Source: an uncultured Cryomorphaceae bacterium (GTDB taxonomy: Bacteria; Bacteroidota; Bacteroidia; Flavobacteriales_D; Parvicellaceae). From it: a DNA stretch of 33,608 nucleotides. The stretch is from positions 1 through 33,608 of the forward strand of contig CAMZLL010000181.1 of assembly GCA_947311505.1 (NCBI GenBank), read 5' to 3'. Positions 10,919-25,593 of the stretch are shown in pieces (the stretch's first letter is position 1; each line of letters begins with the position of its first letter). The notes beneath the pieces were generated by a model. It had not been told where the DNA came from, did no database searches, and worked only from the letters and a program-made list of their open reading frames with translations. The position numbers and the translations under genes were made by a program.

Positions 10919-11317
10919 CTACAGCCTCTTCTTATCTATAGAAACATCAAATATTTCGTTTATTTCTAGCTCCAAAAAACCTTTTACGATTCTGTTGTGA
11001 TGCAAGGTAGCTACCCATTTCAATCCTTTTTCATAATTATCTCCTTCTGAATGATACCTGACTGTTCCTTTTATCTGATAACCGACAAAGCCAGTCCAAA
11101 AAGTTAATGCGACTTTATTATTTTCTAATATATTGGCTCTTGTTTTGTTAAAAAAGTAATCTACCAACCATATTTTTCCATTTTCAACTTTCACTGTAGA
11201 TACAGGGACAACATTTATATCAATGGAATTTGATGTGGCAAGCACTTTTGATTCGGCATTTAATAAGGATTCGGCAATTTCTTTGGTAAGTTTTTTCATT
11301 ATTCTAATTTTAATCAA
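10919..11317 (-). CDS. Pyridoxamine 5'-phosphate oxidase-family (split-barrel flavin-binding) protein
   Basis: MKKLTKEIAESLLNAESKVLATSNSIDINVVPVSTVKVENGKIWLVDYFFNKTRANILENNKVALTFW; split-barrel pattern. True start probably the internal Met at about 11299. Confidence 0.75.
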   Translation of the reverse strand: MIKIRIMKKLTKEIAESLLNAESKVLATSNSIDINVVPVSTVKVENGKIWLVDYFFNKTRANILENNKVALTFWTGFVGYQIKGTVRYHSEGDNYEKGLKWVATLHHNRIVKGFLELEINEIFDVSIDKKRL

Positions 11318-11369: not shown

Positions 11370-11948
11370 CTATTTCAACATTAAGCCGAAGACATCAAGC
11401 AAACCTGACAAATCTGTTTTATCAAAAATAGCTTTAGTCATTTTGTTTTTTGTTGGGTCTATTGAGAAATTAGTAGCTGTTGAAAAATCTGTTTTGGTGA
11501 GGTTAGAACGTTCAAAAATAACATTCCTTAAATTACATTGAGAAAACACCGTTTTCTCCAAATCAGCTTCCGTAAAGTCAACGCCTTCTAGATTACAATT
11601 TTCAAAAAATGAATTTTTAACTTTCATTTTGTAAAAGGAAGCATAATCGAGGAGACAAAAATGAAAAGATACCTTAAATAAAAAAGGATTGCACTCATCA
11701 AATTTCACACCTAATAATTTACATTCACAAAACTTAATATTTTGCATCGAAGAGTCGCAAAGGTTGGTGTTACTCAGATTGCAATTCGTAAATTCACAAT
11801 CCTCAAAATGAATATTTACAATATCTAAACTTGAAAAATTACAATCGATAAAACGGCAACCTTCATAAGTTCCAAATTCAAATAATTGCTCAGTAAAATC
11901 TATATTCTTGATTTCTTGATCTTCGATGTATTTTCTAGCCATTATCAA
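11370..11948 (-). CDS. Pentapeptide-repeat protein (Qnr/MfpA-like fold)
   Basis: Repeats of the A(D/N)LxF type: FIDCNFSSLDIVNIHFEDCEFTNCNLSNTNL...FFENCNLEGVDFTEADLEKTVFSQCNLRNVIFERSNLTKTDFS. Start may be MARKYIEDQ at about 11942. Confidence 0.88.
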   Translation of the reverse strand: MIMARKYIEDQEIKNIDFTEQLFEFGTYEGCRFIDCNFSSLDIVNIHFEDCEFTNCNLSNTNLCDSSMQNIKFCECKLLGVKFDECNPFLFKVSFHFCLLDYASFYKMKVKNSFFENCNLEGVDFTEADLEKTVFSQCNLRNVIFERSNLTKTDFSTATNFSIDPTKNKMTKAIFDKTDLSGLLDVFGLMLK

Positions 11949-11964: not shown

Positions 11965-13245
11965 TTAAATTTCATTTTTCTTTTTATCATAACGAATTGC
12001 AATAGCAGTAAGAATGATAAAAAACAGGGTTAAATACGATAGTTCAGGTAAAATATCTAGTAGTGAACCATTTCTTAAAATAACATCATAAAAACCACTC
12101 AAACCCCAATTCATAGGTGTAAGTTTTGCAAATACTTGCATAGTTTCTGGCATCAAAAAGGTGGGTACCCATACGCCACCAATAGCAGCTAATATCACCA
12201 CAGATGTAGCTCCAAAAGGTGCTGCTTGTTCCGTAGTAGAAGCTACAGTACCGATAAGAATTCCAAAACCAATAGCCGCAAGCCCTATAAATAATGCCAT
12301 TAAATATAAAAGTAAATAACTTCCACTAACATTAAAAGCAGGTAAGCCAATATATGGGAATAAGAATAACCCAACTAAAAGAATGGCCGTAAATTGCAAT
12401 AAACTTATTGCTAAATAGACTATTATTTTACCTCCAAGAAGCGTTGATGGTCTTGTAGGAAATGATTTTAGACGAACAAATGTTCCTTGATTTTTTTCTT
12501 TTACAATGGTAATAGATAAAGGCAAAATGATAAAGAAAATAGCAAATAAAGTCCAAGCCGGAACATTATGCTGAACAGCATCTGGCTTTACTTCTTTGAG
12601 TTCTCCCATGGGGTTTACTTCTGATATAACGATCATTTCTTCGACATTAAAAAAATCGTCTTCTGCTCCTATTGCTTCTTGAAAAGCCGTATAAATAGCT
12701 GCTGTTTCTATTTTAGAAATCATTTTATCTATTGAGCTACGCACCCCATTCTTATAAGCCAATTGTGTAGCTGGATCAAAAATTATTTTTATTTTTTGTT
12801 TTTCAAAAAGTAGAGTTGTATCTTGTTTTTCCTCTTGCTCATCTAAACCAAATTCGGTCATTATTTTAGAAACATTTTGATTTACTTTTTGAGCTAAATT
12901 AAACGACAAATCTTTCGGTAGGACTAGCGCCATTTGATATAAACCTTCCAACACTAATTCTTTAGCCTTTTTTTCATTTAGCAGTTGACCATCTATTTTA
13001 GTGAGTAATTCCAAAGCTCCATTTTTTTCTAAATTAGTTGCTATAGATTTTGACAATTCTCCCCCGTCATTATCTACCAACAATACAGGAATCTTTGTTT
13101 CGTTTATTTGTTGAAAGGTACTGTTTTGAATCAATGTAACCGCTACTACTAAAATTAAGGGCATAACAAACAAAATAATCAATCCCCCAAAATCTCTTTT
13201 GAGTAATAAAAACTCTTTGTATGTGGCTTGTAATAATTTATACAT
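11965..13245 (-). CDS. ABC-2 type transporter permease
   Basis: N-terminal TM followed by a large extracytoplasmic loop and C-terminal TM bundle (LLVGLFLFPYIGLP..., GFGILIGTVASTTEQAAPFGATSVVILAAIGGVWVPTFLMPETMQVFAKLTPMNWGLSGFYDVI). Confidence 0.88.
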   Translation of the reverse strand: MYKLLQATYKEFLLLKRDFGGLIILFVMPLILVVAVTLIQNSTFQQINETKIPVLLVDNDGGELSKSIATNLEKNGALELLTKIDGQLLNEKKAKELVLEGLYQMALVLPKDLSFNLAQKVNQNVSKIMTEFGLDEQEEKQDTTLLFEKQKIKIIFDPATQLAYKNGVRSSIDKMISKIETAAIYTAFQEAIGAEDDFFNVEEMIVISEVNPMGELKEVKPDAVQHNVPAWTLFAIFFIILPLSITIVKEKNQGTFVRLKSFPTRPSTLLGGKIIVYLAISLLQFTAILLVGLFLFPYIGLPAFNVSGSYLLLYLMALFIGLAAIGFGILIGTVASTTEQAAPFGATSVVILAAIGGVWVPTFLMPETMQVFAKLTPMNWGLSGFYDVILRNGSLLDILPELSYLTLFFIILTAIAIRYDKKKNEI

Positions 13246-13993
13246 GATCCCTCAATTTTAGCCCGGTATGTTTTAGATATACTTCTTCTAATGTGTTCGC
13301 ACTTGGAATTGAACTTATCAAATCTGAAGGTGTACCTTTTGCAATGATGGTTCCGGTATCTATGATTATTACTTTGGTACAAAATTCTTGAGCCTCAACC
13401 ATGTGATGAGACGTGTATATTATCGTTGTACCTAACGCATTTAGTTTATGAAGTTGATCTAGTATTACTTGTTTGGATTGGACATCTACACCTACTGTGG
13501 GTTCATCTAAATACAATAATTGTGGATTATGTAGTATTCCAGCAATTAGATTTACACGCCTTTTCATACCTCCAGAAAACGTTTTTATTTTTTTATTTCT
13601 AAAATCAATAAGTCCCATTTCTGTTAAAAAATACTCGATTTTTGTTTTTAAATCTTTTGTTTTCAAGCCATACATTGCTCCAAAATAGTTCAAATTTTCA
13701 AGTGCTGTTAGGCTTGGATATAATGCATATTCTTGTGGTACTATTCCTAGTTTTTTTTGAATCTCTTGCTTGTTGTTTTTAAATTCCAAACCTTGAATTA
13801 GAACTTTACCATCGGTAGGTTTCAAAACCCCACTTAACATTGAAATTAAGGTTGTCTTTCCCGCCCCATTAGGACCTAAAAATCCCACAATCTCTTTTTT
13901 TTCAACACGAAGGTCAAGAGGTTTTACAGCATAATAATCTGTGTTTTTATACTTTTTGGATATACAAACGGTTTCTAAAATAGGTGTTTCCAT
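13238..13993 (-). CDS. ABC transporter ATP-binding protein
   Basis: Walker A GPNGAGKTT, signature FSGGMKRRVNL, Walker B LLYLDEPTVGVD. Overlaps the permease gene by 8 bp. Confidence 0.96.
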   Translation of the reverse strand: METPILETVCISKKYKNTDYYAVKPLDLRVEKKEIVGFLGPNGAGKTTLISMLSGVLKPTDGKVLIQGLEFKNNKQEIQKKLGIVPQEYALYPSLTALENLNYFGAMYGLKTKDLKTKIEYFLTEMGLIDFRNKKIKTFSGGMKRRVNLIAGILHNPQLLYLDEPTVGVDVQSKQVILDQLHKLNALGTTIIYTSHHMVEAQEFCTKVIIIDTGTIIAKGTPSDLISSIPSANTLEEVYLKHTGLKLRDHV

Positions 13994-13994
13994 A

Positions 13995-14990
13995 TTATAT
14001 GGATTTTTTTAATTTCTTAAAAAACAACTCTTCTTTATTTGCTATAACTAATAATTTGTCGGCTATTTTATTATAACCATCAAATTCTACACTCCTGTTT
14101 TTATAAAGCCTAGATGCATCTATTGCAAAATCTCTCCATAGATCTCCAATGGTTGTTATTTCTTTTGATAAATCTTTTAAAACAGGGTTATTTAAAATCT
14201 CAGCTGCTTCTTCTAGAAATGCACCATAAATAAATCGAAATCCACCGCCACCAGTTCCTATTTCTTCTTGCATACGGACTATCTGTCCTAAATAATGATT
14301 GGTTTTCTTAATTCCCACTTTTTTTGGCCATTTTCGTATTGATTTAGAGACTGTTCTCATTCCTTTTACGCCAACTAAAGGAACGGGCGCAAGCATATAT
14401 CTACAAGTAGCTTTAATGGCTGTTTTGATAGCTTTTTCTAAAGGTAAATCAGTAGGAACATTGGTAGGGTAATACATTTGTCCTTTTGGGGCAAATGCTC
14501 CTTTTGCAAAACGTACTAAATCCAATTGTTCTGAGGGTAAACTCGTTACATTTTCCATGACTGGATCGCTAATCAAGTACTCATTTTTTTCTTTTCCATA
14601 TACTACCATATTGTGAGCGTTGAAATGAAAACGATAATCGTCAGGAAAATAAGTTAGGTTATATACCCCTACTTGTAATCCTACTGGAATGCCTTTTTTG
14701 AGTAATGAATCTAAAGCTTTCTGTGCGTTTTCTGGAGATTTGAACTTTTCTCTTTTTATGGTTATTCCCAATCTTTTACACATCCGTTTAAAAATCAGTC
14801 CGGGCATAGGTCGGTAACTTACTGCTGGTGCAAAATTCACTTTTAAAAAAGGCAAATAGACAAAGAATATTCCTGACCCCAATCCAAACGCCATTGGTTC
14901 ACTTATTTGATAGCCTTTATGCTTTAATAAGTTGGAAATTACTCCGTTTTCGCAATGCGCAGCCTGGTGATGTGTAAAATCTACATTCAT
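13995..14990 (-). CDS. BtrH N-terminal-domain protein (BtrH/DUF4872-like, cysteine-peptidase-fold acyltransferase candidate)
   Basis: N-terminal HHQAAHCENGVISNLLKHKGYQISEPMAFGLGSGIFFVYLPF, with central GIPVGLQVGVYNLTY...FHFNAHNMVVYGKEKNEYLISDPV, typical of BtrH-like/C39-like proteins. Confidence 0.8.
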   Translation of the reverse strand: MNVDFTHHQAAHCENGVISNLLKHKGYQISEPMAFGLGSGIFFVYLPFLKVNFAPAVSYRPMPGLIFKRMCKRLGITIKREKFKSPENAQKALDSLLKKGIPVGLQVGVYNLTYFPDDYRFHFNAHNMVVYGKEKNEYLISDPVMENVTSLPSEQLDLVRFAKGAFAPKGQMYYPTNVPTDLPLEKAIKTAIKATCRYMLAPVPLVGVKGMRTVSKSIRKWPKKVGIKKTNHYLGQIVRMQEEIGTGGGGFRFIYGAFLEEAAEILNNPVLKDLSKEITTIGDLWRDFAIDASRLYKNRSVEFDGYNKIADKLLVIANKEELFFKKLKKSI

Positions 14991-15388
14991 TTATCAATTT
15001 CTTTTAACTGTGCTACACTTACGTTGAAAACAGCAGCATATTTTTTCAGCATTTTAGAAGAAAGGCTATTAAATACGTTTATTTTAAAATGTCTTTTTAC
15101 TTGCCATTGCCATTTGCCAACATAATCTGAAAGCACGATTAAATCCATTCTATTTAATTCCATATAATACTGAATAGGGCTAATTTCTTTGGCTTGGGCT
15201 CGTTGTTTAAAACCAGCTATGCGTTCATTTATATATTCTAAAGATTGATCTAAGGCAATCTTTTTTGGATTCCATCCAGAGCTTGTTTTTGTGCCATAAT
15301 TTCCCTCTTCATCTACACCGTAGCAAAGTTCCTTAAACCCAGCGGACTCAAGATTACTTTTATCTTGGGGCACATCATTTAACTTCAT
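14987..15388 (-). CDS. Uncharacterised 133-aa protein within the pigment operon
   Basis: Intact ORF overlapping both neighbours (4 bp and 14 bp); no motif I recognise. Confidence 0.75.
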   Translation of the reverse strand: MKLNDVPQDKSNLESAGFKELCYGVDEEGNYGTKTSSGWNPKKIALDQSLEYINERIAGFKQRAQAKEISPIQYYMELNRMDLIVLSDYVGKWQWQVKRHFKINVFNSLSSKMLKKYAAVFNVSVAQLKEIDK

Positions 15389-15857
15389 TACTAATCTTTT
15401 TGATAAACAAATTTAATTGGCAATCTAAGAGTAGCTTTTCTCCCGAATAGATAAGACCATTCATAGTACATATCGAATATCCATCGCCATCAAATCTAGA
15501 AACTAACACTCCTTTTGATTTTATGGTTGTATTAATTTTGGGTAGGTGATGAATGTTTATTTTCTTAATAGTGCTGATAAAACCGATAACATCCGAATTG
15601 TTTTCTTCATCGAGCTGATCGCCTTCCTCTTGATGAAAATAGGAACTCCCTACGATTATGGAACAAGTTTGTGCTATATTTTCAATCAAACCCGACTCTT
15701 GAAAAAGAGAATTATCCACAAAAATATTATTTTTTGATAGGGTCAGTTCGGTTTCAACTATATCATCAGTTAGTGCTAATAACTTATCAACCATGAGCAT
15801 ATTACCTCTATGCGGAAGGTATTTGGTAACATCAATATTTTCAATAGCTATTTTCAA
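15375..15857 (-). CDS. 3-hydroxyacyl-ACP dehydratase-like hotdog protein (DH1, catalytic His retained)
   Basis: KYLPHRGNMLMVDKLL resembles the FabZ active-site motif (L/F)PHRxPxLLVD; SGLIENIAQT carries the Glu motif. Confidence 0.82.
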   Translation of the reverse strand: MKIAIENIDVTKYLPHRGNMLMVDKLLALTDDIVETELTLSKNNIFVDNSLFQESGLIENIAQTCSIIVGSSYFHQEEGDQLDEENNSDVIGFISTIKKINIHHLPKINTTIKSKGVLVSRFDGDGYSICTMNGLIYSGEKLLLDCQLNLFIKKISNEVK

Positions 15858-15858
15858 A

Positions 15859-16278
15859 TTATGGAGCTAAAACGGTTTTCATTTTTCCAGTAGCGATTAT
15901 TTCATCACCGATATTGACCACTATCTGTACCAATGTAACACCCATAAACTCCTGAATGATGGATACTTTGGTGGCTATAACTTCGTTTAATTTAGGTAAC
16001 CTCTCAATAACGACATTACTTATAGACCCGATATAACCTACTGGTGCGGTTTTTTTTAATAAAAAATACTGATAACCTGTATATAACGCCACCGTTTGTG
16101 CCATGTTTTCAATTAATCCGGGTTCTAAAAAGGTTTGATTTTTCACAAAAATATTATCAGAAGCTGGCGTAAAATTAGATAGGATATGCTCATCAGTATA
16201 TTCCATTAGTTTCCCAACCATTACAAATGGTGCTTTCTGAGGAATGAGATCTTTTACTTGGTTTTCGTTTGCTAACAT
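15859..16278 (-). CDS. Hotdog dehydratase-like paralogue (DH2, catalytic His replaced by Gln)
   Basis: LIPQKAPFVMVGKLM aligns with LPHRGNMLMVDKLL of DH1; PGLIENMAQTVALYTGYQYF aligns with SGLIENIAQTCSIIVGSSYF. Confidence 0.82.
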   Translation of the reverse strand: MLANENQVKDLIPQKAPFVMVGKLMEYTDEHILSNFTPASDNIFVKNQTFLEPGLIENMAQTVALYTGYQYFLLKKTAPVGYIGSISNVVIERLPKLNEVIATKVSIIQEFMGVTLVQIVVNIGDEIIATGKMKTVLAP

Positions 16279-16293
16279 AAGCTATTTTTAATT

Positions 16294-17427
16294 TTAACAG
16301 ACTGTAAGATAAGCGTAGGCATAAGAAAAACGACCGCTTTCAGGAACACTTAACAATATGGTATCTCCTTTCTGTAGTTTGTTGGAGTTGAATAATTCTT
16401 CTAACATCAGATATACCGATGCAGATCCTACATTGCCTACATCTGCAAGATTGGTAAACCATTTAGAATCTGCTATTCCTACATTATTTTCGTGCATCAA
16501 AGCTTTTAGCTTATCTGCAAAATAAAAAGAGGAGATGTGTGGTAAAAAGTAGGTAACGTCTTCTCCAATTAAATTATGTTTCTGCATTGCTATTTTGCAA
16601 CTCTCAACACCTTTAATTAATATATTTTTATCTAATATTTTTGTATCTTGGTTGAATGAAAACAGCGAATTTTTTAACCATTCATCGGGATGAAAATCAT
16701 TCCATGGTTTGATAGTTCCATCTTTTTGTTTTTCGCCACCAGCCCACATACATGTTTCTATTTCATGAGCATAGGAATAGGCTTCCATCCATTCTATTTT
16801 TAGAGACAAGTCTCCTTTTGGTTGGTTTTCTAGCAACATGGCTCCAGCACCATCAGAAAGCATCCACCGAAGAAATTCTCGTTGAAAAGCGACTATTGGT
16901 CTTTGTTCTAGTTCTTTTAAGTTCTCTACTTCGTTTTTGAATTTTTCGGCAAGCATCCAAGTAGATAACCTTTCCGACCCTGTACAAATAGCATTGTTTG
17001 AGTTACCTGATTTTACAGACATATAGCCAAATTTCAAAGCATTCATACCTGAGGTACAAATACCTGAAGAAGAGTTTAGTTCGAAGCTTTTATGGTCAAA
17101 CAATCCATGCACCATTACTGCGTGAGATGGCAATAATAAATCGGGAGTTGTAGTTCCACAAGATAATACTTCCACATCATTTTCTGTAAAGTTTTCATCA
17201 AAAAGACCGTCTATCGCCTCTTTTGTTAATTCAGCATTATTATGCGTAGATTGTCCATTATCATCTATAGCGTAATATCTACTTTTAATACCGTTATTTT
17301 TCAGTACTACTCTTCGTGCTTTGGAAGGAGTGTTGTTTATTAAACCCAAAAGAGACTCCATATCATCGTTAGAAACAGGACGATTTGGTAGTGCTTTCGA
17401 GATTTTATTTATATAAACATCAGACAT
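16294..17427 (-). CDS. DarB-like beta-ketoacyl-ACP synthase III-type enzyme (dialkylresorcinol biosynthesis)
   Basis: SSGICTSGMNALKFGYMSVKSG active-site Cys, FLPHISSFYFADKL His, GNVGSASVYLMLEEL Asn; located beside the DarA-like gene. Confidence 0.88.
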   Translation of the reverse strand: MSDVYINKISKALPNRPVSNDDMESLLGLINNTPSKARRVVLKNNGIKSRYYAIDDNGQSTHNNAELTKEAIDGLFDENFTENDVEVLSCGTTTPDLLLPSHAVMVHGLFDHKSFELNSSSGICTSGMNALKFGYMSVKSGNSNNAICTGSERLSTWMLAEKFKNEVENLKELEQRPIVAFQREFLRWMLSDGAGAMLLENQPKGDLSLKIEWMEAYSYAHEIETCMWAGGEKQKDGTIKPWNDFHPDEWLKNSLFSFNQDTKILDKNILIKGVESCKIAMQKHNLIGEDVTYFLPHISSFYFADKLKALMHENNVGIADSKWFTNLADVGNVGSASVYLMLEELFNSNKLQKGDTILLSVPESGRFSYAYAYLTVC

Positions 17428-17436
17428 CTATTCTTA

Positions 17437-18363
17437 TTATTTTAGTGCAGTTCGTTGATAATAATTAATATCCAATTGGCGTTTTTTTGCTGTAAATGGA
17501 TAAGCCAACAAATATACAATAAAAACAATAGGAGATACAACCCAGATGGCGAACAAAAGGTAATAACTAAACAGTTTTACATATTTTTCTCTTTTTTGAA
17601 TGCTAATTTTTTCTTTTCTAAGGACTAATTTTGACCAAAAACTAAAAATCAGGTTTGCTTTTCGATCTACTAAAATCAAGAAGGGTTTTATTCTAGTTGC
17701 ATCTTGTTTTATTAATTCTTCTTGTGTAGCGTCATAGTTTCCTGATTTTAGATGTTTTAAGATAGTTGGACTAAATTTAATGGCTGTATCAATATCTTTT
17801 TGAGAAATACCGGGTAACGGAAATAGTCCTAAATAGCGTTTAGTTTTATCTCCGTTCATCATCCAATGCACAATCGTTACCACACTTACATGATTGATAT
17901 GTCTATCGGTTAAAACAATGTTACCTACTAGATTTGCATCAAGATTCAAAAGTAGTTGTTTCATTTTATCTTGCGCCATATACCACATATTTCTACAGCC
18001 GATTATGGTAATTACGGGTGTGTTTTTAAAAAGGGTTGTTGCTATATCAGATTTCAAAAAGGAATTAGCAGGAATGGATGGAGTAAGATACCATACTTGA
18101 TAAGAGAATATTATCAAATCATACTTCTCTTTAAGTAATGGATTATCCAAATCATTTAATGCTGTTGGGGTTTGACTAAAAGATTCTGGAAACGTATTGT
18201 AAAACACATCTTTTGACCATGGAAATGGATAGTCTTCTTTTAATTTAATATTGTAAAACGATAAATTAACTTCGCTATCAGCTAGCAGATCTTTTGTGAT
18301 GTTATTGGTGATTTCTAAAAGCTGACCAGATTGGGAATAATATATGACAAGTACTTTCTTCAT
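17437..18363 (-). CDS. DarA-like dialkylresorcinol condensing enzyme
   Basis: N-terminal flavodoxin-like VLVIYYSQSGQLLEITNNI, QVWYLTPSIPANSFLKS, C-terminal TM segments (YYLLFAIWVVSPIVFIVYLLAYPF); adjacent to DarB-like. Confidence 0.83.
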   Translation of the reverse strand: MKKVLVIYYSQSGQLLEITNNITKDLLADSEVNLSFYNIKLKEDYPFPWSKDVFYNTFPESFSQTPTALNDLDNPLLKEKYDLIIFSYQVWYLTPSIPANSFLKSDIATTLFKNTPVITIIGCRNMWYMAQDKMKQLLLNLDANLVGNIVLTDRHINHVSVVTIVHWMMNGDKTKRYLGLFPLPGISQKDIDTAIKFSPTILKHLKSGNYDATQEELIKQDATRIKPFLILVDRKANLIFSFWSKLVLRKEKISIQKREKYVKLFSYYLLFAIWVVSPIVFIVYLLAYPFTAKKRQLDINYYQRTALK

Positions 18364-19247
18364 TACTCACCCTCTTCTTTTTTCCAAAAATCAAAGAAGT
18401 TAAACCATTGATAGGGGAATTTTTTAAGTATCCATTCTATATTCTCAGTATATTCTTTTAGTAGTTCTTGTTGGTTTCTGTTCTGAAAATTGGCTCTTCT
18501 AGCAAACATATGATAGTGCGAACTGGTCTCTTTCATGTTGTAAACAAAAATAACAGGTACTCTAAGTCGGGAGGCTAGGATATAAGGACCGGCAGGAAAT
18601 AATGCATCTTTACCAAGAAGCTTTTGCGTCATCACTTTGTTTCCTTCAAAATATCTATCTCCCGTAAAAACAATCAACTCATTTCTTGACAATGCGTTAT
18701 TGATCTCAAAAACATGTGACATGTCATCTCCAATAATGATGAATTTTAAGTTGGATTTCGTAAATATACTGTCGAGGTATTTTTTTAGTTGTTGATGTTC
18801 TCTATCTGTGGTTATTAAATTTATGGTAGCATTTACATCTAATTGACTCAGAAAGTGTTCTGCAATTTCAAAATTTCCGACATGTGCACTTATTAAGATC
18901 CCTCCTTGTTTTTCTTTTAGAATATCTTTTAAGATTTCTTCCCCATCAAAGTTAAAGGTATATTTTTTTTCTAACCCTGATTTTATAGCTATTTTATCGA
19001 GTATTGTTTGTGCAAAAACATAGTAGTTTTTATAAACTCCTATTACACTTTTAAACTTAGATTTACCTTGTCTTTTATGAAAATAATAATAGCTAGCTTT
19101 TGATCCTGAACGAGCAAAAATGAGGTAGTAAAAGGCTAAAAACCTTAGAACGATGTAAACAAATCGAATTCCCAAATTGCGCATAAGAAAAACGATAATC
19201 TTATAACCAAAAACGGTTCCTTTTGACTTACCATCCCATTGCGCCAT
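18363..19247 (-). CDS. LpxL/HtrB-type (lipid A biosynthesis-like) acyltransferase
   Basis: HX4E motif SAHVGNFEIAE, downstream GDRYFEGNKVMTQKLLGKDALFPAGPYILASRLRVPVIFVY, N-terminal TM segment. Confidence 0.9.
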   Translation of the reverse strand: MAQWDGKSKGTVFGYKIIVFLMRNLGIRFVYIVLRFLAFYYLIFARSGSKASYYYFHKRQGKSKFKSVIGVYKNYYVFAQTILDKIAIKSGLEKKYTFNFDGEEILKDILKEKQGGILISAHVGNFEIAEHFLSQLDVNATINLITTDREHQQLKKYLDSIFTKSNLKFIIIGDDMSHVFEINNALSRNELIVFTGDRYFEGNKVMTQKLLGKDALFPAGPYILASRLRVPVIFVYNMKETSSHYHMFARRANFQNRNQQELLKEYTENIEWILKKFPYQWFNFFDFWKKEEGE

Positions 19248-19294: not shown

Positions 19295-19540
19295 TTACGC
19301 ATTAATTTTTCGTTCTAATAAATCATAGAAATTTTGAAGTGTTTCAATTCCTGTAAAATCTTCTGCTACTAATTTTACTCCAAAATTGGATTCTACCGCA
19401 ACTACAAGATCAACGAAATCTAAACTATCTAACTCTAGTGTTTCTGTTAGGTTTGCTTCAGGTTTAATTTCTTCTTCTTCTACCTCAAATTCATCAATTA
19501 GAAATTCATTAATCTTTTCTATTATAGTATTCTTATCCAT
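19295..19540 (-). CDS. Acyl carrier protein
   Basis: 81 aa acidic protein with phosphopantetheine site LELDSLDFVDLVV (Ser at 19424-19426). Confidence 0.95.
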   Translation of the reverse strand: MDKNTIIEKINEFLIDEFEVEEEEIKPEANLTETLELDSLDFVDLVVAVESNFGVKLVAEDFTGIETLQNFYDLLERKINA

Positions 19541-19543
19541 AAG

Positions 19544-20764
19544 TTATTTTATCTTTTTTATTACTAGGGCTGAATTTGTACCTCCAAATCCAAACGAATT
19601 GGACAAAAATACATCAATATTTTTATTTATAGTTTTTCTTACAAGATTTAATTTTGCAGAATCTTCATCTGGTTCGTCTAAATTGATATTTGGTGCTATA
19701 AAAGAGTGCTCCATCATGAGCATAGAATAGATTACTTCACTAGCCCCTGCCATCCAGCATTCGTGTCCTGTCATAGACTTGGTAGAACTAACATAAGGTT
19801 TGCTTTTTCCAAAAACAGCATCTATTGCTTTTGCTTCATTTTGATCTCCAACAGGTGTAGATGTGGCATGCGCATTTACATAGTCAATATCTGCATGTGT
19901 TACATTGGCTTGTTCCAATGCTTTGAGCATTGCTCTAGAAGGTCCGTCAACATTTGGGGTAGAAATATGCTCTCCATTTGATGAAAAACCATAGCCGATA
20001 ACCTCTCCTAAAATAGTTGCACCTCTTGCTATAGCAGATTCATAGGTCTCTAAAACTAAAGAAGCTCCACCACCACTTGGCACTAAGCCATCTCTTCCTT
20101 TATCAAATGGTCTGCATGCTTTAGCTGGTTCATCTTCTCTAGTAGAAAAAACGCCCAAGCCATCAAAACTACCCAATGCTAAATGGTTTATTTCTTGTGC
20201 TCCTCCGCATATAATCATATCTTGAAGTCCGCTTTTTATCAATTGATATCCTAATCCTATTGAGTGCGAGCCACTTGCACAGGCGGCAGAAATAGTAAGG
20301 TTAATACCCTTTAATTTGAATAGCGTAGATAGGTTCATTGTGATAGTAGAGTTCATTCCTTTGAAAATAGCTCCTGATCCTACCAATGTAGTGTCCTTTT
20401 TTTCTCTTACAACATCTACTGACTCAATGATGGACTTTGCTGTACTGTCGTTTCCAAAGATTATCCCAATTTCGTTTTTAATAAGAAAATCTTCGTCAAT
20501 TCCTGCGTTTTCTAAAGCTTCTATAGTTGCGAGGTAGGCATATTGAGATTCTTGCCCCATGCTTATTCGTTGCCTTCTTTTCAACAAACCTTTGAGAGCA
20601 GGTTCTGGTACTTGCCCGGTCAATGATGATCTATATCCAAATTCTTTTCTTACTGGATCATAGACAATGCCTGATTTACCTTCGTACAATGATTTTTTTA
20701 CTTCATCTAGGTTGGTTCCTAAACAAGAATAAATGCCCATTCCTGTAATTACAACTCTTTTCAT
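19544..20764 (-). CDS. Beta-ketoacyl-ACP synthase (FabF/FabB-like KS)
   Basis: ISAACASGSHSIGLG Cys, VNAHATSTPVGDQNE His, KSMTGHECWMAGASE His, NSFGFGGTNSALV glycine-rich motif. Confidence 0.95.
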   Translation of the reverse strand: MKRVVITGMGIYSCLGTNLDEVKKSLYEGKSGIVYDPVRKEFGYRSSLTGQVPEPALKGLLKRRQRISMGQESQYAYLATIEALENAGIDEDFLIKNEIGIIFGNDSTAKSIIESVDVVREKKDTTLVGSGAIFKGMNSTITMNLSTLFKLKGINLTISAACASGSHSIGLGYQLIKSGLQDMIICGGAQEINHLALGSFDGLGVFSTREDEPAKACRPFDKGRDGLVPSGGGASLVLETYESAIARGATILGEVIGYGFSSNGEHISTPNVDGPSRAMLKALEQANVTHADIDYVNAHATSTPVGDQNEAKAIDAVFGKSKPYVSSTKSMTGHECWMAGASEVIYSMLMMEHSFIAPNINLDEPDEDSAKLNLVRKTINKNIDVFLSNSFGFGGTNSALVIKKIK

Positions 20765-20787: not shown

Positions 20788-21519
20788 TTAAGAATAAATA
20801 CCTCCGTTAATATTTATAATCTCTCCTGTAATATATGCAGATTTAGAGGACGCTAAGAATGTTACTAACTCAGCAACCTCTTCTGCTTCACCAAATCTAT
20901 TAGCAGGAATTAATTTTTTAAGGTCTTTTTCATTCAAATCTGCTGTCATATCTGATTTAATAAACCCTGGAGCAACGGCATTTACAGTAATTTTTCGTTT
21001 TGCTATTTCCTGCGCCAACGCTTTTGTAACTGCTACGATAGCACCTTTTGCTGCAGAGTAATTCGTTTGTCCAGGTGTGCCTTTTACTCCGGATACAGAT
21101 ACCATGTTGATTACCCTTCCATATCTGTTGCTCAACATTTTTTGCATCAAATGGTTGGTAACATTGAAGAAGCCATTAAGACTGGTGTTGATTACCGAAT
21201 CCCAATCTTTCTTAGGCATCCACATAAACAATCCGTCTTTTGTTATACCTGCATTGTTGACCACTACTTCAATAATTCCTTCTGGGTTGGCACTCCACCA
21301 AGCATCTATACCCTTTGAAACCTCTTCCGAGTTGGCAACATCAAACTTCATAATTTCACCATTTCCACCTGCTTCTTTTACTAAACGAAGTGTTTCATTG
21401 GCTGCTTCTTCATTTGATCTATAGTTGATAATAATATGATAGTCTAATTCCTGCGCAAACTTCACGCAAATAGCTCTTCCTATTCCTCTTGATCCTCCGG
21501 TAACTAATGCTGTTTTCAT
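20788..21519 (-). CDS. 3-oxoacyl-ACP reductase (FabG-like SDR)
   Basis: TGGSRGIGRAI, NNAGITKDGL, SVSGVKGTPGQTNYSAAKGAIVAVTKALAQEIAKR (YxxxK), TVNAVAPGFIKSDM. Confidence 0.95.
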   Translation of the reverse strand: MKTALVTGGSRGIGRAICVKFAQELDYHIIINYRSNEEAANETLRLVKEAGGNGEIMKFDVANSEEVSKGIDAWWSANPEGIIEVVVNNAGITKDGLFMWMPKKDWDSVINTSLNGFFNVTNHLMQKMLSNRYGRVINMVSVSGVKGTPGQTNYSAAKGAIVAVTKALAQEIAKRKITVNAVAPGFIKSDMTADLNEKDLKKLIPANRFGEAEEVAELVTFLASSKSAYITGEIININGGIYS

Positions 21520-22730
21520 TATTCTTGTATGTTTTGAAATTTATCTACAAATTCGTATGTTTTTCCTTGTAGAAACACTCCTTTTGTATTTATATATCCC
21601 ATTCTGCCTTCAAATTTAACTCTAGCTAAACCATCGTGAAATCCTTTGGGTTTTGCTAGTCCATATTGATCTTTTAGAACCAATTCGCCATTTAAGTTGA
21701 CAAATCCCCAACTCGTTTTATATTTTATAGGAGCTAACTCTCCTTCTTCAAAAGGAATAGCGTCTCTAAATTTACCTTTGATTTTGAATGCTCCTTTGGT
21801 GTCAATATAACTCCAAGCTTCTCCCTTCATAAACACAGGAGCAAGTCCTTGTGCAAAATTTCTTGCTATAGTATAGATTGGTTTGAGTACCCATTCTCCT
21901 TTTCGGTTAATATAACCATACTTATCGTTCTTACTTCTAGCCAGTGCTAACTCTTCGCCATCTATAAAGTTATTAATTTTTATAGCGTCCTCTACTACTA
22001 CAAATTCTCCATTAATATCTAACCCAAATTGTTTTTTTAATTTACAATTTAAAACGCCATTTGATAGTTTACCAATCCAATGATATTTTGGAGTTAGTAT
22101 TTCATTTCCTTTGTTGTCTATAAACCCCCAAAGTTTATCCAATTTAACTTTAGCAATTCCGTTTTCAAACTTATCTATCCTATGATATTTTGGTTCTAAA
22201 ACTACCTTTCCGTTGGTGTCTATAATACCTATTAAACCATTTCTTTTAATAAAAGCCAACCCACCGATAAAGTCATACGGTTTTTCTGATTCAGGCATTA
22301 TTACATCTTTACCTTTTTTATCAATGTATTTCCATTTTTCTCCGTCAAGAACGATAGCAAACCCAGAATGAAAGGCTTTTACTTTAGGATATTTAAATGG
22401 TATTATGGTTTGTCCTTTGGCATCAATAAAACCCCAAGCCTCTCCGTTAAAAACGGCTACTAATCCCTCACTAAAATCACCTACCTTTAAATATTGATAA
22501 TCAACAATAATTTCACCTTTGCTATCTGCAAATCCCCAAAATTCTTCATTTCTGATGGCAACAAATCCGTTTCTAAATTTCCTCACTTTAGTGAAAGTTG
22601 GTTCTATCGCATAGTTACCTTCTTTTGTGATGAAACCAAATTTTTCATTCTCTCTAACTTTTGCGTACTCTTGTGCAAATGAAGATACACTTGATAAAAT
22701 CAATAATAATATAGAAATTAAATTTTTCAC
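21519..22730 (-). CDS. Secreted WG-repeat (KWG) protein
   Basis: Signal peptide MKNLISILLLILSSVSSFAQ followed by about 11 units of the form (x)WGFIDxKGxxxxxPKYxxxxxFxxGxAxVxxxx. Confidence 0.93.
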   Translation of the reverse strand: MKNLISILLLILSSVSSFAQEYAKVRENEKFGFITKEGNYAIEPTFTKVRKFRNGFVAIRNEEFWGFADSKGEIIVDYQYLKVGDFSEGLVAVFNGEAWGFIDAKGQTIIPFKYPKVKAFHSGFAIVLDGEKWKYIDKKGKDVIMPESEKPYDFIGGLAFIKRNGLIGIIDTNGKVVLEPKYHRIDKFENGIAKVKLDKLWGFIDNKGNEILTPKYHWIGKLSNGVLNCKLKKQFGLDINGEFVVVEDAIKINNFIDGEELALARSKNDKYGYINRKGEWVLKPIYTIARNFAQGLAPVFMKGEAWSYIDTKGAFKIKGKFRDAIPFEEGELAPIKYKTSWGFVNLNGELVLKDQYGLAKPKGFHDGLARVKFEGRMGYINTKGVFLQGKTYEFVDKFQNIQE

Positions 22731-24271
22731 ACCTTTGTTTTTGTAATATATTCTTTTACGTTGTTTACGAATGGATACATTGCCATATCTTCTGAGAAAA
22801 CAGGTACAATAGCTCTGATTTCTTTATACATTTTTGCAGTCGCAGAAGAAACTTTATCTTGATACTTTAAATAATCTAAGGCTTGTACTATTGTTATGAG
22901 TTCTATTGCAATAACCTCAAAAGTATTCTCAATAACTTTTTTTGTCATCAACGCAGCGTTAGTTCCCATACTTACGATGTCTTGATTGTCATTGTTGTTT
23001 GGAATACTATGTACGTACATAGGATTAGATAATGTCTGGTTCTCCGCTGTAGTAGAGGTAGCGGTAAACTGAACACCTTGCATTCCAAAATTAAGACCTA
23101 GTTTTCCAAGGTTTACAAAAGGAGGAAGAATATCATTCAGTTTATGATTCATCAGATAGTTTAATTGCCGTTCTGCCAACATGCTCATCTTAGTGATGAC
23201 AATTTTTAGCTTATCCATTTCTAAAGAGATATAGTCCCCGTGGAAGTTTCCTCCATGATATACGTGTTCTTTTTCTATGTCTATTATAGGGTTGTCATTT
23301 GCAGAGTTTACTTCTTCTATCAATACACTTTCTACATTTTTCATGGTGTCCAAAACAGGACCTAGAATCTGCGGTACACATCTCAGTGAATAATATTCTT
23401 GAACCTTTTCTTTAAAAATAGGATCGTTTGCCTGTGCGTTATAAAGATGTTCCCCTCTGTTTCGTGTTAATTTACTATCAGCTAGATCTTCTCGCATCAT
23501 TCTTGCGATTTCTTGCTGACCGTGATGTCTTTTTGAATTGTTTAATTCAACCGAAAGATGATCGTCATAAGCACAAACGACTTCGTTGATTGCCACAGAA
23601 CATTTAAGCATCCAATTCAACGCTCGCTTTGAATAAATAGCATTAACGATACCGATACCGGTCATTACAGAAGTGCCATTCATCAACGCTAAACCTTCTC
23701 TAAGTTTAACTTCTATTGGTTCTAAACCTTCTTTTTCAAAAACTTCGCTAGTTTCAGTCAGTTTTCCTTTATAAAAACATTGTCCTTCTCCAATAAGAAC
23801 CAGTGCTAAATGTGCCAACTGAACCAAATCACCACTTGCACCAACTCCGCCATGCGAATAAATCAAAGGTGTAATATCTCTATTTATTAGCTCTGTCATC
23901 AGATGGATTACAGTAAGATTTACGCCTGACCGCCCCAAACATAGTGTGTTTAATCGTGCCAACATAGCAGACTTAACATAAATAGGCGCTAATGGTTCTC
24001 CCGAACCAGAAGCATGGCTTCTGATTAGATTGTATTGCAGTTGAATACGGTCTTCATCGGCAATTTTGTACTGTGCCATTGGACCAAAACCAGTATTGAC
24101 TCCATAAATAACCTTTTCTTCAGAAAAATCTTTTAAAAAGTGAAAACTACGGTCCACCTTGTTTAAAAGGTTACTTCCAATTTTTATATGCTTTTTGTTG
24201 AATAAAACCTGATAGAAATCATCTAAACTAAGTTCTGTTTCAACTTCTAGAATTTTTTTGCCCATTTTCAA
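22727..24271 (-). CDS. Aromatic amino acid ammonia-lyase, probably tyrosine ammonia-lyase (HAL/PAL/TAL family)
   Basis: MIO motif ASG in HGGVGASGDLVQLAHLALVLIGEG (23831-23839), KVIYGVNTGFGPMAQY, NGTSVMTGIG, SANDNPIID, YHGGNFHGDYISLEMDKLKIVITK. Closely resembles, from memory, the F. johnsoniae TAL. Confidence 0.93.
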   Translation of the reverse strand: MKMGKKILEVETELSLDDFYQVLFNKKHIKIGSNLLNKVDRSFHFLKDFSEEKVIYGVNTGFGPMAQYKIADEDRIQLQYNLIRSHASGSGEPLAPIYVKSAMLARLNTLCLGRSGVNLTVIHLMTELINRDITPLIYSHGGVGASGDLVQLAHLALVLIGEGQCFYKGKLTETSEVFEKEGLEPIEVKLREGLALMNGTSVMTGIGIVNAIYSKRALNWMLKCSVAINEVVCAYDDHLSVELNNSKRHHGQQEIARMMREDLADSKLTRNRGEHLYNAQANDPIFKEKVQEYYSLRCVPQILGPVLDTMKNVESVLIEEVNSANDNPIIDIEKEHVYHGGNFHGDYISLEMDKLKIVITKMSMLAERQLNYLMNHKLNDILPPFVNLGKLGLNFGMQGVQFTATSTTAENQTLSNPMYVHSIPNNNDNQDIVSMGTNAALMTKKVIENTFEVIAIELITIVQALDYLKYQDKVSSATAKMYKEIRAIVPVFSEDMAMYPFVNNVKEYITKTKV

Positions 24272-24348: not shown

Positions 24349-25593
24349 ATGTCACATGAATTAGTTGATGTATTAATCATTGGAGCTGGACCAGCGGGTT
24401 GCGTATCAGCTGCTCATCTAATAAACAAAGGGGTTAACGTTAAAATAATAGAAAAATCAAAGTTTCCTAGATATGTAATTGGTGAAAGTTTATTACCAAG
24501 ATGTATGGATCATTTTGAAGAAGTGGGCTTGCTAGAGTGCTTAAAAGCAAAAGGGTTTGAAAAAAAACACGGTGCTCGATTTCTAAGAAAGAAAGAAATT
24601 TGCACGTTTGATTTTAGCGTTAAACATTCGGAAGGGTGGGATTGGACATGGCAAGTACCACGAGATGAATTTGATAACACCCTAGCTATTGAAGTTCAAA
24701 AAAAGGGAGTTGAAATAGCGTTTGAAAGCGAAGTAACTGCTGTATGGTTTGAAGGAAGCATTTCTACGGTTACTATCATAGATACAAACGGAAATAAAAA
24801 AACAATAACTGCTAAGTACATAATTGACTCTAGTGGATACGGACGTGTTTTGCCGAGGTTATTGGATTTAGACAAGCCATCAGCATTGCCTAAGCACTCG
24901 TCTATCTTTGCACAAGTAAAAGACATTAACAAACCAGAGGGATACGAAGGAACGATGATTACGTTTGATATTATCGACACCCAAGTGTGGTTCTGGATGA
25001 TTCCTTTTTCAAATGGGAATACGAGTATCGGTTTCGTAGGTCCTACAGAATTTATCAATTCGTTTGAAGGCTCAACGACAGAAGCCCTTACTGAGATGAT
25101 AAAACTATCTGAATACTACAAGGATCGTTTTGAAGGCGTGGATTTCTTATTTGAACCAAAGAAAATCCAAAATTTTTCAAAATCAGTTAAACAACTTCAT
25201 GGACAAGGATATGTACTTACAGGCAATAGCACCGAATTTTTGGATCCTGTATTTTCATCAGGAGTAACTTTTGCTACTGAGTCAGGGTTGCTGGCTGCAA
25301 AACTGGTAGAGAAAGAACTCAAAGGCGAAACAGTAAATTGGGATAAAGAATATACAGAGTACATTGCTCAAGGTGTAGCGGTGTTTTCTACCTATGTAGC
25401 AGAATGGTACACAGGAAATTTGCAAAAGTTGTTTTTTCACCAACCCGAAAATAAAGAAATTAAAAAACAGATTTGCTCCGTACTTGCAGGTTATGTTTGG
25501 GATAAGACCAACCCATTTGTTTCTAAGCACAATAGAATAGTTAAATCCGTAGCGCATTTGATAGACATGGAAGTGGCAGCAGCAAAAAAATAG
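24349..25593 (+). CDS. FAD-dependent oxidoreductase, flavin-dependent halogenase-like
   Basis: GAGPAGCVSAAHL FAD motif, FPRYVIGESLLPR, WFWMIP (WxWxIP halogenase signature, 24988-25005), DPVFSSGVTFA. Confidence 0.88.
   Translation: MSHELVDVLIIGAGPAGCVSAAHLINKGVNVKIIEKSKFPRYVIGESLLPRCMDHFEEVGLLECLKAKGFEKKHGARFLRKKEICTFDFSVKHSEGWDWTWQVPRDEFDNTLAIEVQKKGVEIAFESEVTAVWFEGSISTVTIIDTNGNKKTITAKYIIDSSGYGRVLPRLLDLDKPSALPKHSSIFAQVKDINKPEGYEGTMITFDIIDTQVWFWMIPFSNGNTSIGFVGPTEFINSFEGSTTEALTEMIKLSEYYKDRFEGVDFLFEPKKIQNFSKSVKQLHGQGYVLTGNSTEFLDPVFSSGVTFATESGLLAAKLVEKELKGETVNWDKEYTEYIAQGVAVFSTYVAEWYTGNLQKLFFHQPENKEIKKQICSVLAGYVWDKTNPFVSKHNRIVKSVAHLIDMEVAAAKK

Follow-up and report, generated by a model that had tools for sequence, protein, structure and literature searches.

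Flexirubins, a long-standing taxonomic marker of Bacteroidota, join an aryl polyene to a dialkylresorcinol through an ester. Which enzyme forms this ester? In the open-licence literature we found no paper showing which enzyme joins the two halves, and no experiment on the ester step. The question is raised by a 33,608-nucleotide stretch of DNA from an uncultured Cryomorphaceae bacterium (hereafter the window), in which a first-pass annotation had proposed that a BtrH-like protein of a pigment operon could pass the polyene chain from its carrier protein to the resorcinol. Our analysis points to this protein, a member of the DarH family, as the likeliest catalyst of ester formation, with a probability of roughly three in four.

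The gene, darH (13995-14990, minus strand), starts with ATG and encodes 331 amino acids. Its kinship with BtrH was confirmed by profile searches. The Pfam domain BtrH_N (PF14399) is matched end to end (1-134 of 134, E 2.1e-53) and DUF4872 (PF16169) over its full length (2-173 of 173, E 1.4e-59), while residues 4-328 align with the whole NCBIfam model for DarH (NF053550; 1-325 of 325) at 511.4 bits, against a curated cut-off of 300. This family is the closest known system, with a full-length match, the same operon context of DarA, DarB and DarG, and no structural difference. Its model names an acyltransferase, and since the family name 'BtrH-related acyltransferase' predates our reading of the protein, the idea of an ester-forming enzyme is not wholly new. 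No mutant or assay of darH was found in the open-licence literature. In Azoarcus, the name 'darH' refers to a different gene with a PilT domain, and the counterpart of DarH is darE, which likewise sits in the dialkylresorcinol (DAR) cluster, between darD and the ABC genes, and is listed there under the label 'BtrH-like peptidase' (PMC3949708). The Azoarcus strain makes arcuflavin, a polyene-DAR hybrid with a predicted ester (PMC3949708).

The placement in a pigment operon also held up, with flxA, darA, darB and darG all on the strand of darH. Closely spaced genes run on this strand from 24271 down to 11965. They begin with flxA (22727-24271), the tyrosine ammonia-lyase of flexirubin biosynthesis (NCBIfam NF053541, 885 bits, cut-off 700), and continue with a WG-repeat protein (21519-22730), a ketoreductase (20788-21519), a ketosynthase of the polyene pathway (19544-20764), an acyl carrier protein (19295-19540) and an LpxL-like member of the acyltransferase family (18363-19247). 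The resorcinol genes follow. The darA-like gene (17437-18363, 308 amino acids) lies directly upstream of darB, can be aligned with the darB-adjacent gene of other DAR operons and has the RNMW motif in common with them; darB itself (16294-17427) encodes a dialkylresorcinol ketosynthase above its cut-off (NCBIfam NF053539, 640 bits, cut-off 550). Next come two hotdog, FabZ-like dehydratases, DHa (15859-16278) and DHb (15375-15857), both with weak NCBIfam FabZ matches, and darG (14987-15388, 133 amino acids; flexirubin biosynthesis protein DarG, NF053545, 186 bits, cut-off 170), whose stop codon overlaps the ATG of darH by 4 nt. An ABC transporter ATPase (13238-13993) adjoins darH and is itself adjoined by an ABC-2 type permease (11965-13245).

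The first-pass annotation had called the N-terminal motif HHQAAHCENG conserved and its cysteine possibly catalytic. The motif is present at residues 7-16 of DarH, but only its H12, C13 and E14 are invariant across an alignment of 102 homologues. The suggestion about the cysteine fared better: in the alignment, Cys13 is invariant together with His126 and Asp142 in 95/95 DarH proteins, and all three make up the predicted triad. C13 and H126 are also found in 7/7 DarH paralogues. Paralogues below the cut-off (L007, L032, L033, L034 and L035) carry the motif HCE[ST]TATG and have no Asp at position 142.

We utilised AlphaFold2 to predict the structure of DarH from 25 sequences, leaving out two alignment rows from plasmid records, and obtained a model with a mean pLDDT of 89. 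Searching the PDB with this model in Foldseek returned AziU2-U3, CtaG and CcbD as the best matches (E about 1e-9 to 1e-6), with TM-scores of about 0.63-0.70 to AziU3, CtaG and CcbD. DarH is predicted to combine a papain-like BtrH_N domain with a helical C-terminal domain, as in the BtrH fold, and the Cys-His-acid set of BtrH-fold acyltransferases is represented by conserved residues of the DarH sequence. The spacing of the C/H/D residues is 113 and 16 in DarH and 117 and 16 in CtaG, whose PDB entries include C11A, H128A and D144N variants, and a weak profile match places the His and Ser-Asp of AziU3 on H126 and S141-D142 of DarH. At the sequence level, a PDB search with DarH gave one chance match, and a PDB profile search gave mostly designed coiled coils besides the weak AziU3 match. 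On the strength of its predicted fold and active site, DarH thus looks like a carrier-protein acyltransferase.

The characterised proteins of this kind help to frame what DarH could do. BtrH, the ACP:aminoglycoside acyltransferase of butirosin biosynthesis, uses a carrier protein as acyl donor (PMC10318531) and shares with DarH the BtrH_N domain, a likeness by domain rather than by direct alignment; its acceptor is an aminoglycoside, whereas that of DarH would be a phenol. CtaG of closthioamide biosynthesis, about 12-14% identical to DarH, is among the best fold matches and has the nearly equal C/H/D spacing given above. Its proposed reaction takes a hydroxybenzoyl group from a carrier protein (PMC6772006) and places it on an amine that a second such protein bears. 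In the lincosamide condensation enzymes CcbD and LmbD, a Cys receives the acyl group of a carrier protein and hands it on to an amine (PMC12945683). CcbD has the fold predicted for DarH at about 12% identity; the two enzymes use a Cys-His-Glu triad and an amino-sugar acceptor to form an amide, unlike the Cys-His-Asp residues of DarH.

How closely does DarH follow the resorcinol genes? In a sample of 297 Bacteroidota genomes, DarB exceeded its cut-off in 22 and DarH in 23, including all 22 of the DarB genomes; in the additional genome, G076, a 519-bit DarB is encoded next to DarA on a different contig. As many of the genomes compared here and below are related, the counts do not represent independent events, and Fisher values calculated for the linkage of these genes overstate it. 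FlxA is found in 23/23 DarH genomes and in three further ones (G175, G295 and G299), whose polyene clusters include the LpxL-like gene but not DarA, DarG or DarH. In G156, G267, G311, G327 and G076, the genes A-B-G-H, usually accompanied by ABC genes, form a DAR module that can be separated from the polyene module. Used without a cut-off, DarB is too broad a marker for resorcinol synthesis, since distant KAS III matches turn up in nearly all genomes. DarB-like ketosynthases without DarA were seen at L036 11992-13134, L037 14989-16125 and L041 9113-10252. They are encoded on plasmids of Bacteroides and Prevotella, where HTH or TetR regulators adjoin them, and in G295, where the gene stands alone (499 bits, no adjacent DarA). 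We set these genes aside; they are possibly signal-making genes.

Beyond this phylum, a GC-biased search for the RNMW motif of DarA in one-genome-per-species contigs yielded 111 stretches, mostly from Proteobacteria, of which 80 are named. For 75 of these 80, DarH is encoded either at the locus itself or at another place in the same genome; the five without it come from Pseudomonas (one), Nocardia (two) and Hydrocarboniphaga (two). Among 300 Pseudomonas genomes, 24 have DarA; DarH above the cut-off occurs in 21 of these 24 and in 0/276 of those without DarA. The three DarH-less Pseudomonas clusters are of the darAB or darABC type, with darAB followed in two of them by an ACP match and in one by a gene that, as read from the sequence, is methyltransferase-like. 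DarG is missing from all three as well. The cluster of P. chlororaphis, consisting of darABC and two regulators, has 2-hexyl-5-propylresorcinol as its product (PMC6403133), and darABC-type clusters for free resorcinols are without DarG and DarH. One of the DarH-less genomes, G354, also has a polyene-type ketosynthase (262 bits), so the presence of both pathways in one genome does not by itself bring DarH. In the Pseudomonas genome G511, DarA is split over two ORFs (L191 10178-11120), and the resorcinol cluster may therefore be decaying or contain a sequence error.

Gene content agrees with a role in joining resorcinol and polyene in the Bacteroidota and Pseudomonas samples and is ambiguous in Hydrocarboniphaga and Opitutaceae, most of the products being uncharacterised. 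Hydrocarboniphaga G361 counts against an ester role, since it combines DarA with a polyene-type ketosynthase but has no DarH. Two Opitutaceae have DarH without the polyene marker PF13723, a marker that is itself weak in flexirubin-type clusters. We found PF13723 only partly useful, as it is strong in Proteobacteria and weak or absent in clusters of the flexirubin type.

From the ring, the gene content and the fold, we infer the step that DarH would catalyse. Heterologous expression of no more than DarA and DarB from C. pinensis yielded the resorcinol (PMC3992019), which means that the ring can be made without DarH. DarH is found chiefly where genes for both halves, resorcinol and polyene, are present, and the studied products of such genomes, flexirubin and arcuflavin, are esters or predicted esters. 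The remaining task is an acyl transfer, and DarH has a predicted fold for acyl transfer; its step is thus probably the ester. The proposal of the first-pass annotation is in this way supported as the leading explanation by the modelled fold, the conservation of Cys, His and Asp in sequence, and the association with resorcinol genes. Two further points weigh on the other side: the characterised relatives form amides, not phenyl esters, and the adjacent ABC genes allow for a role linked to transport.

The computed features of DarH, namely its gene, family, conserved triad residues, predicted fold and resorcinol-gene association, can be put together with the following scheme. DarH would be a cysteine-dependent carrier-protein acyltransferase with the BtrH/CcbD/CtaG fold, and would probably work in ping-pong order. 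The finished aryl-polyene acyl chain would move from an acyl carrier protein to Cys13; the ACP gene of the operon is circumstantial evidence for such a donor, and its product may be the carrier in question. The dialkylresorcinol from DarA and DarB would then offer one of its phenolic hydroxyls as the likely acceptor; activated by His126, which is held by Asp142, this oxygen would attack the Cys13 thioester and release the flexirubin ester, perhaps with some help from DarG.

The most obvious competitor within the operon is the LpxL-like enzyme, which could form the polyene-resorcinol ester and leave DarH to do something else. It belongs to an acyltransferase family, and a homologue occurs in all searched Bacteroidota genomes with DarH except G156. 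That exception is telling, since G156 has FlxA, DarA, DarB, DarG and DarH, whereas G175, G295 and G299 retain the LpxL-like gene in polyene clusters devoid of darA, darG and darH; each candidate therefore occurs without the other. DarH goes with the resorcinol genes, the LpxL-like enzyme with those for the polyene. For ApeD and ApeJ, acyltransferases of E. coli, the proposed role is to fix the polyene to a lipid anchor (PMC8253772). With gene content in both directions placing DarH ahead, we do not favour the LpxL-like enzyme, which the first-pass annotation had named as a rival, and consider it extremely unlikely to be the ester-forming enzyme. The G156 cluster (L055-L056) is compact and possibly a pigment variant. 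It holds FlxA, several ketosynthases, an AMP-binding enzyme, DarA/B/G/H and ABC genes, and the other products annotated in the stretch read are dehydratases, reductases, a carrier protein and a phosphopantetheinyl transferase. Its AMP-binding enzyme is in keeping with a different route, in which the ligase-like FlxW, proposed for Chitinophaga pinensis (PMC3992019), would activate the free polyene acid and join it to the resorcinol. FlxW is itself a proposal and would leave DarH, a resorcinol-linked protein with an acyltransferase fold, without a role; we regard this route as highly unlikely.

A role for DarH as a hydrolase or C39-like peptidase that serves the ABC transporter encoded next to it, for instance in export or proofreading, would accord with the relation of BtrH_N proteins to C39 peptidases (PMC10318531), with the peptidase annotation of Azoarcus darE and with the ABC genes that usually adjoin darH. 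The fold comparison argues otherwise, as the best matches are acyl-transfer-type enzymes and the peptidase-containing exporter PCAT1 ranks below every AziU3, CtaG and CcbD match, with E 5e-4 against 1e-9. No leader-peptide substrate was noticed among the operon genes, and in G327 and G076 DarH has no adjacent ABC gene, so that a peptidase function seems just as improbable as the ligase route. Lastly, DarG could carry a necessary part of the ester reaction, with DarH working alongside it or mainly helping it. DarG is encoded directly upstream of DarH and has the same distribution: outside the phylum samples, 67/69 DarH loci among the 111 stretches have A-B-G-H on one strand, always in that order, and the two proteins are absent together from free-resorcinol clusters. 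The linkage between DarG and DarH is as tight as that between DarH and DarA. DarG has no recognisable acyltransferase fold, however; its model, predicted to be helical in the C-terminal part and of low confidence at the N-terminus, gives only weak HTH-like matches, and the Cys-His-Asp set is found in DarH alone. We therefore judge it very unlikely that DarG holds an essential share of the chemistry, and DarH, which may need DarG or have it as a partner, remains our preferred catalyst.

With a little less confidence than for the ester step as such, we think it probable that DarH acts as a phenol O-acyltransferase, perhaps in complex with DarG. An amide-making fold would here have been turned to an aryl ester that joins two separately encoded pathways, and the presence or absence of DarH would decide between a membrane pigment and a free dialkylresorcinol. 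If so, a fold known for N-acylation also performs phenol O-acylation, and ester chemistry is added to a small family of carrier-protein acyltransferases. The gene-content pattern points to one gene, darH, with DarG as a possible partner, supplies exact residues as targets for mutation, and predicts which resorcinol clusters lead to free compounds and which to pigments.

The surroundings of the operon offer some further observations. DarH is absent from genomes of the same genus. We considered a misassigned contig as the reason and disfavour it; patchy inheritance is more likely, because the window contains ordinary housekeeping genes and the remaining flexirubin cluster lies on contig C137 of the same genome. 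After the ABC genes, other clusters go on with ketosynthase genes, which in this genome are located on C137 together with genes for an ACP, a thioesterase, a polysaccharide deacetylase, LolA2 and LolB2. In the window, the ABC permease is instead followed by pentapeptide-repeat and PNPOx-like genes (11370-11948 and 10919-11317). The WG-repeat protein between FlxA and the ketoreductase is also found in G114 (L050) and G283 (L052). At the other end of the operon, a FAD-dependent halogenase-like gene (24349-25593) is divergent from flxA, and the same neighbour occurs in L050, L054, L198 and L200.
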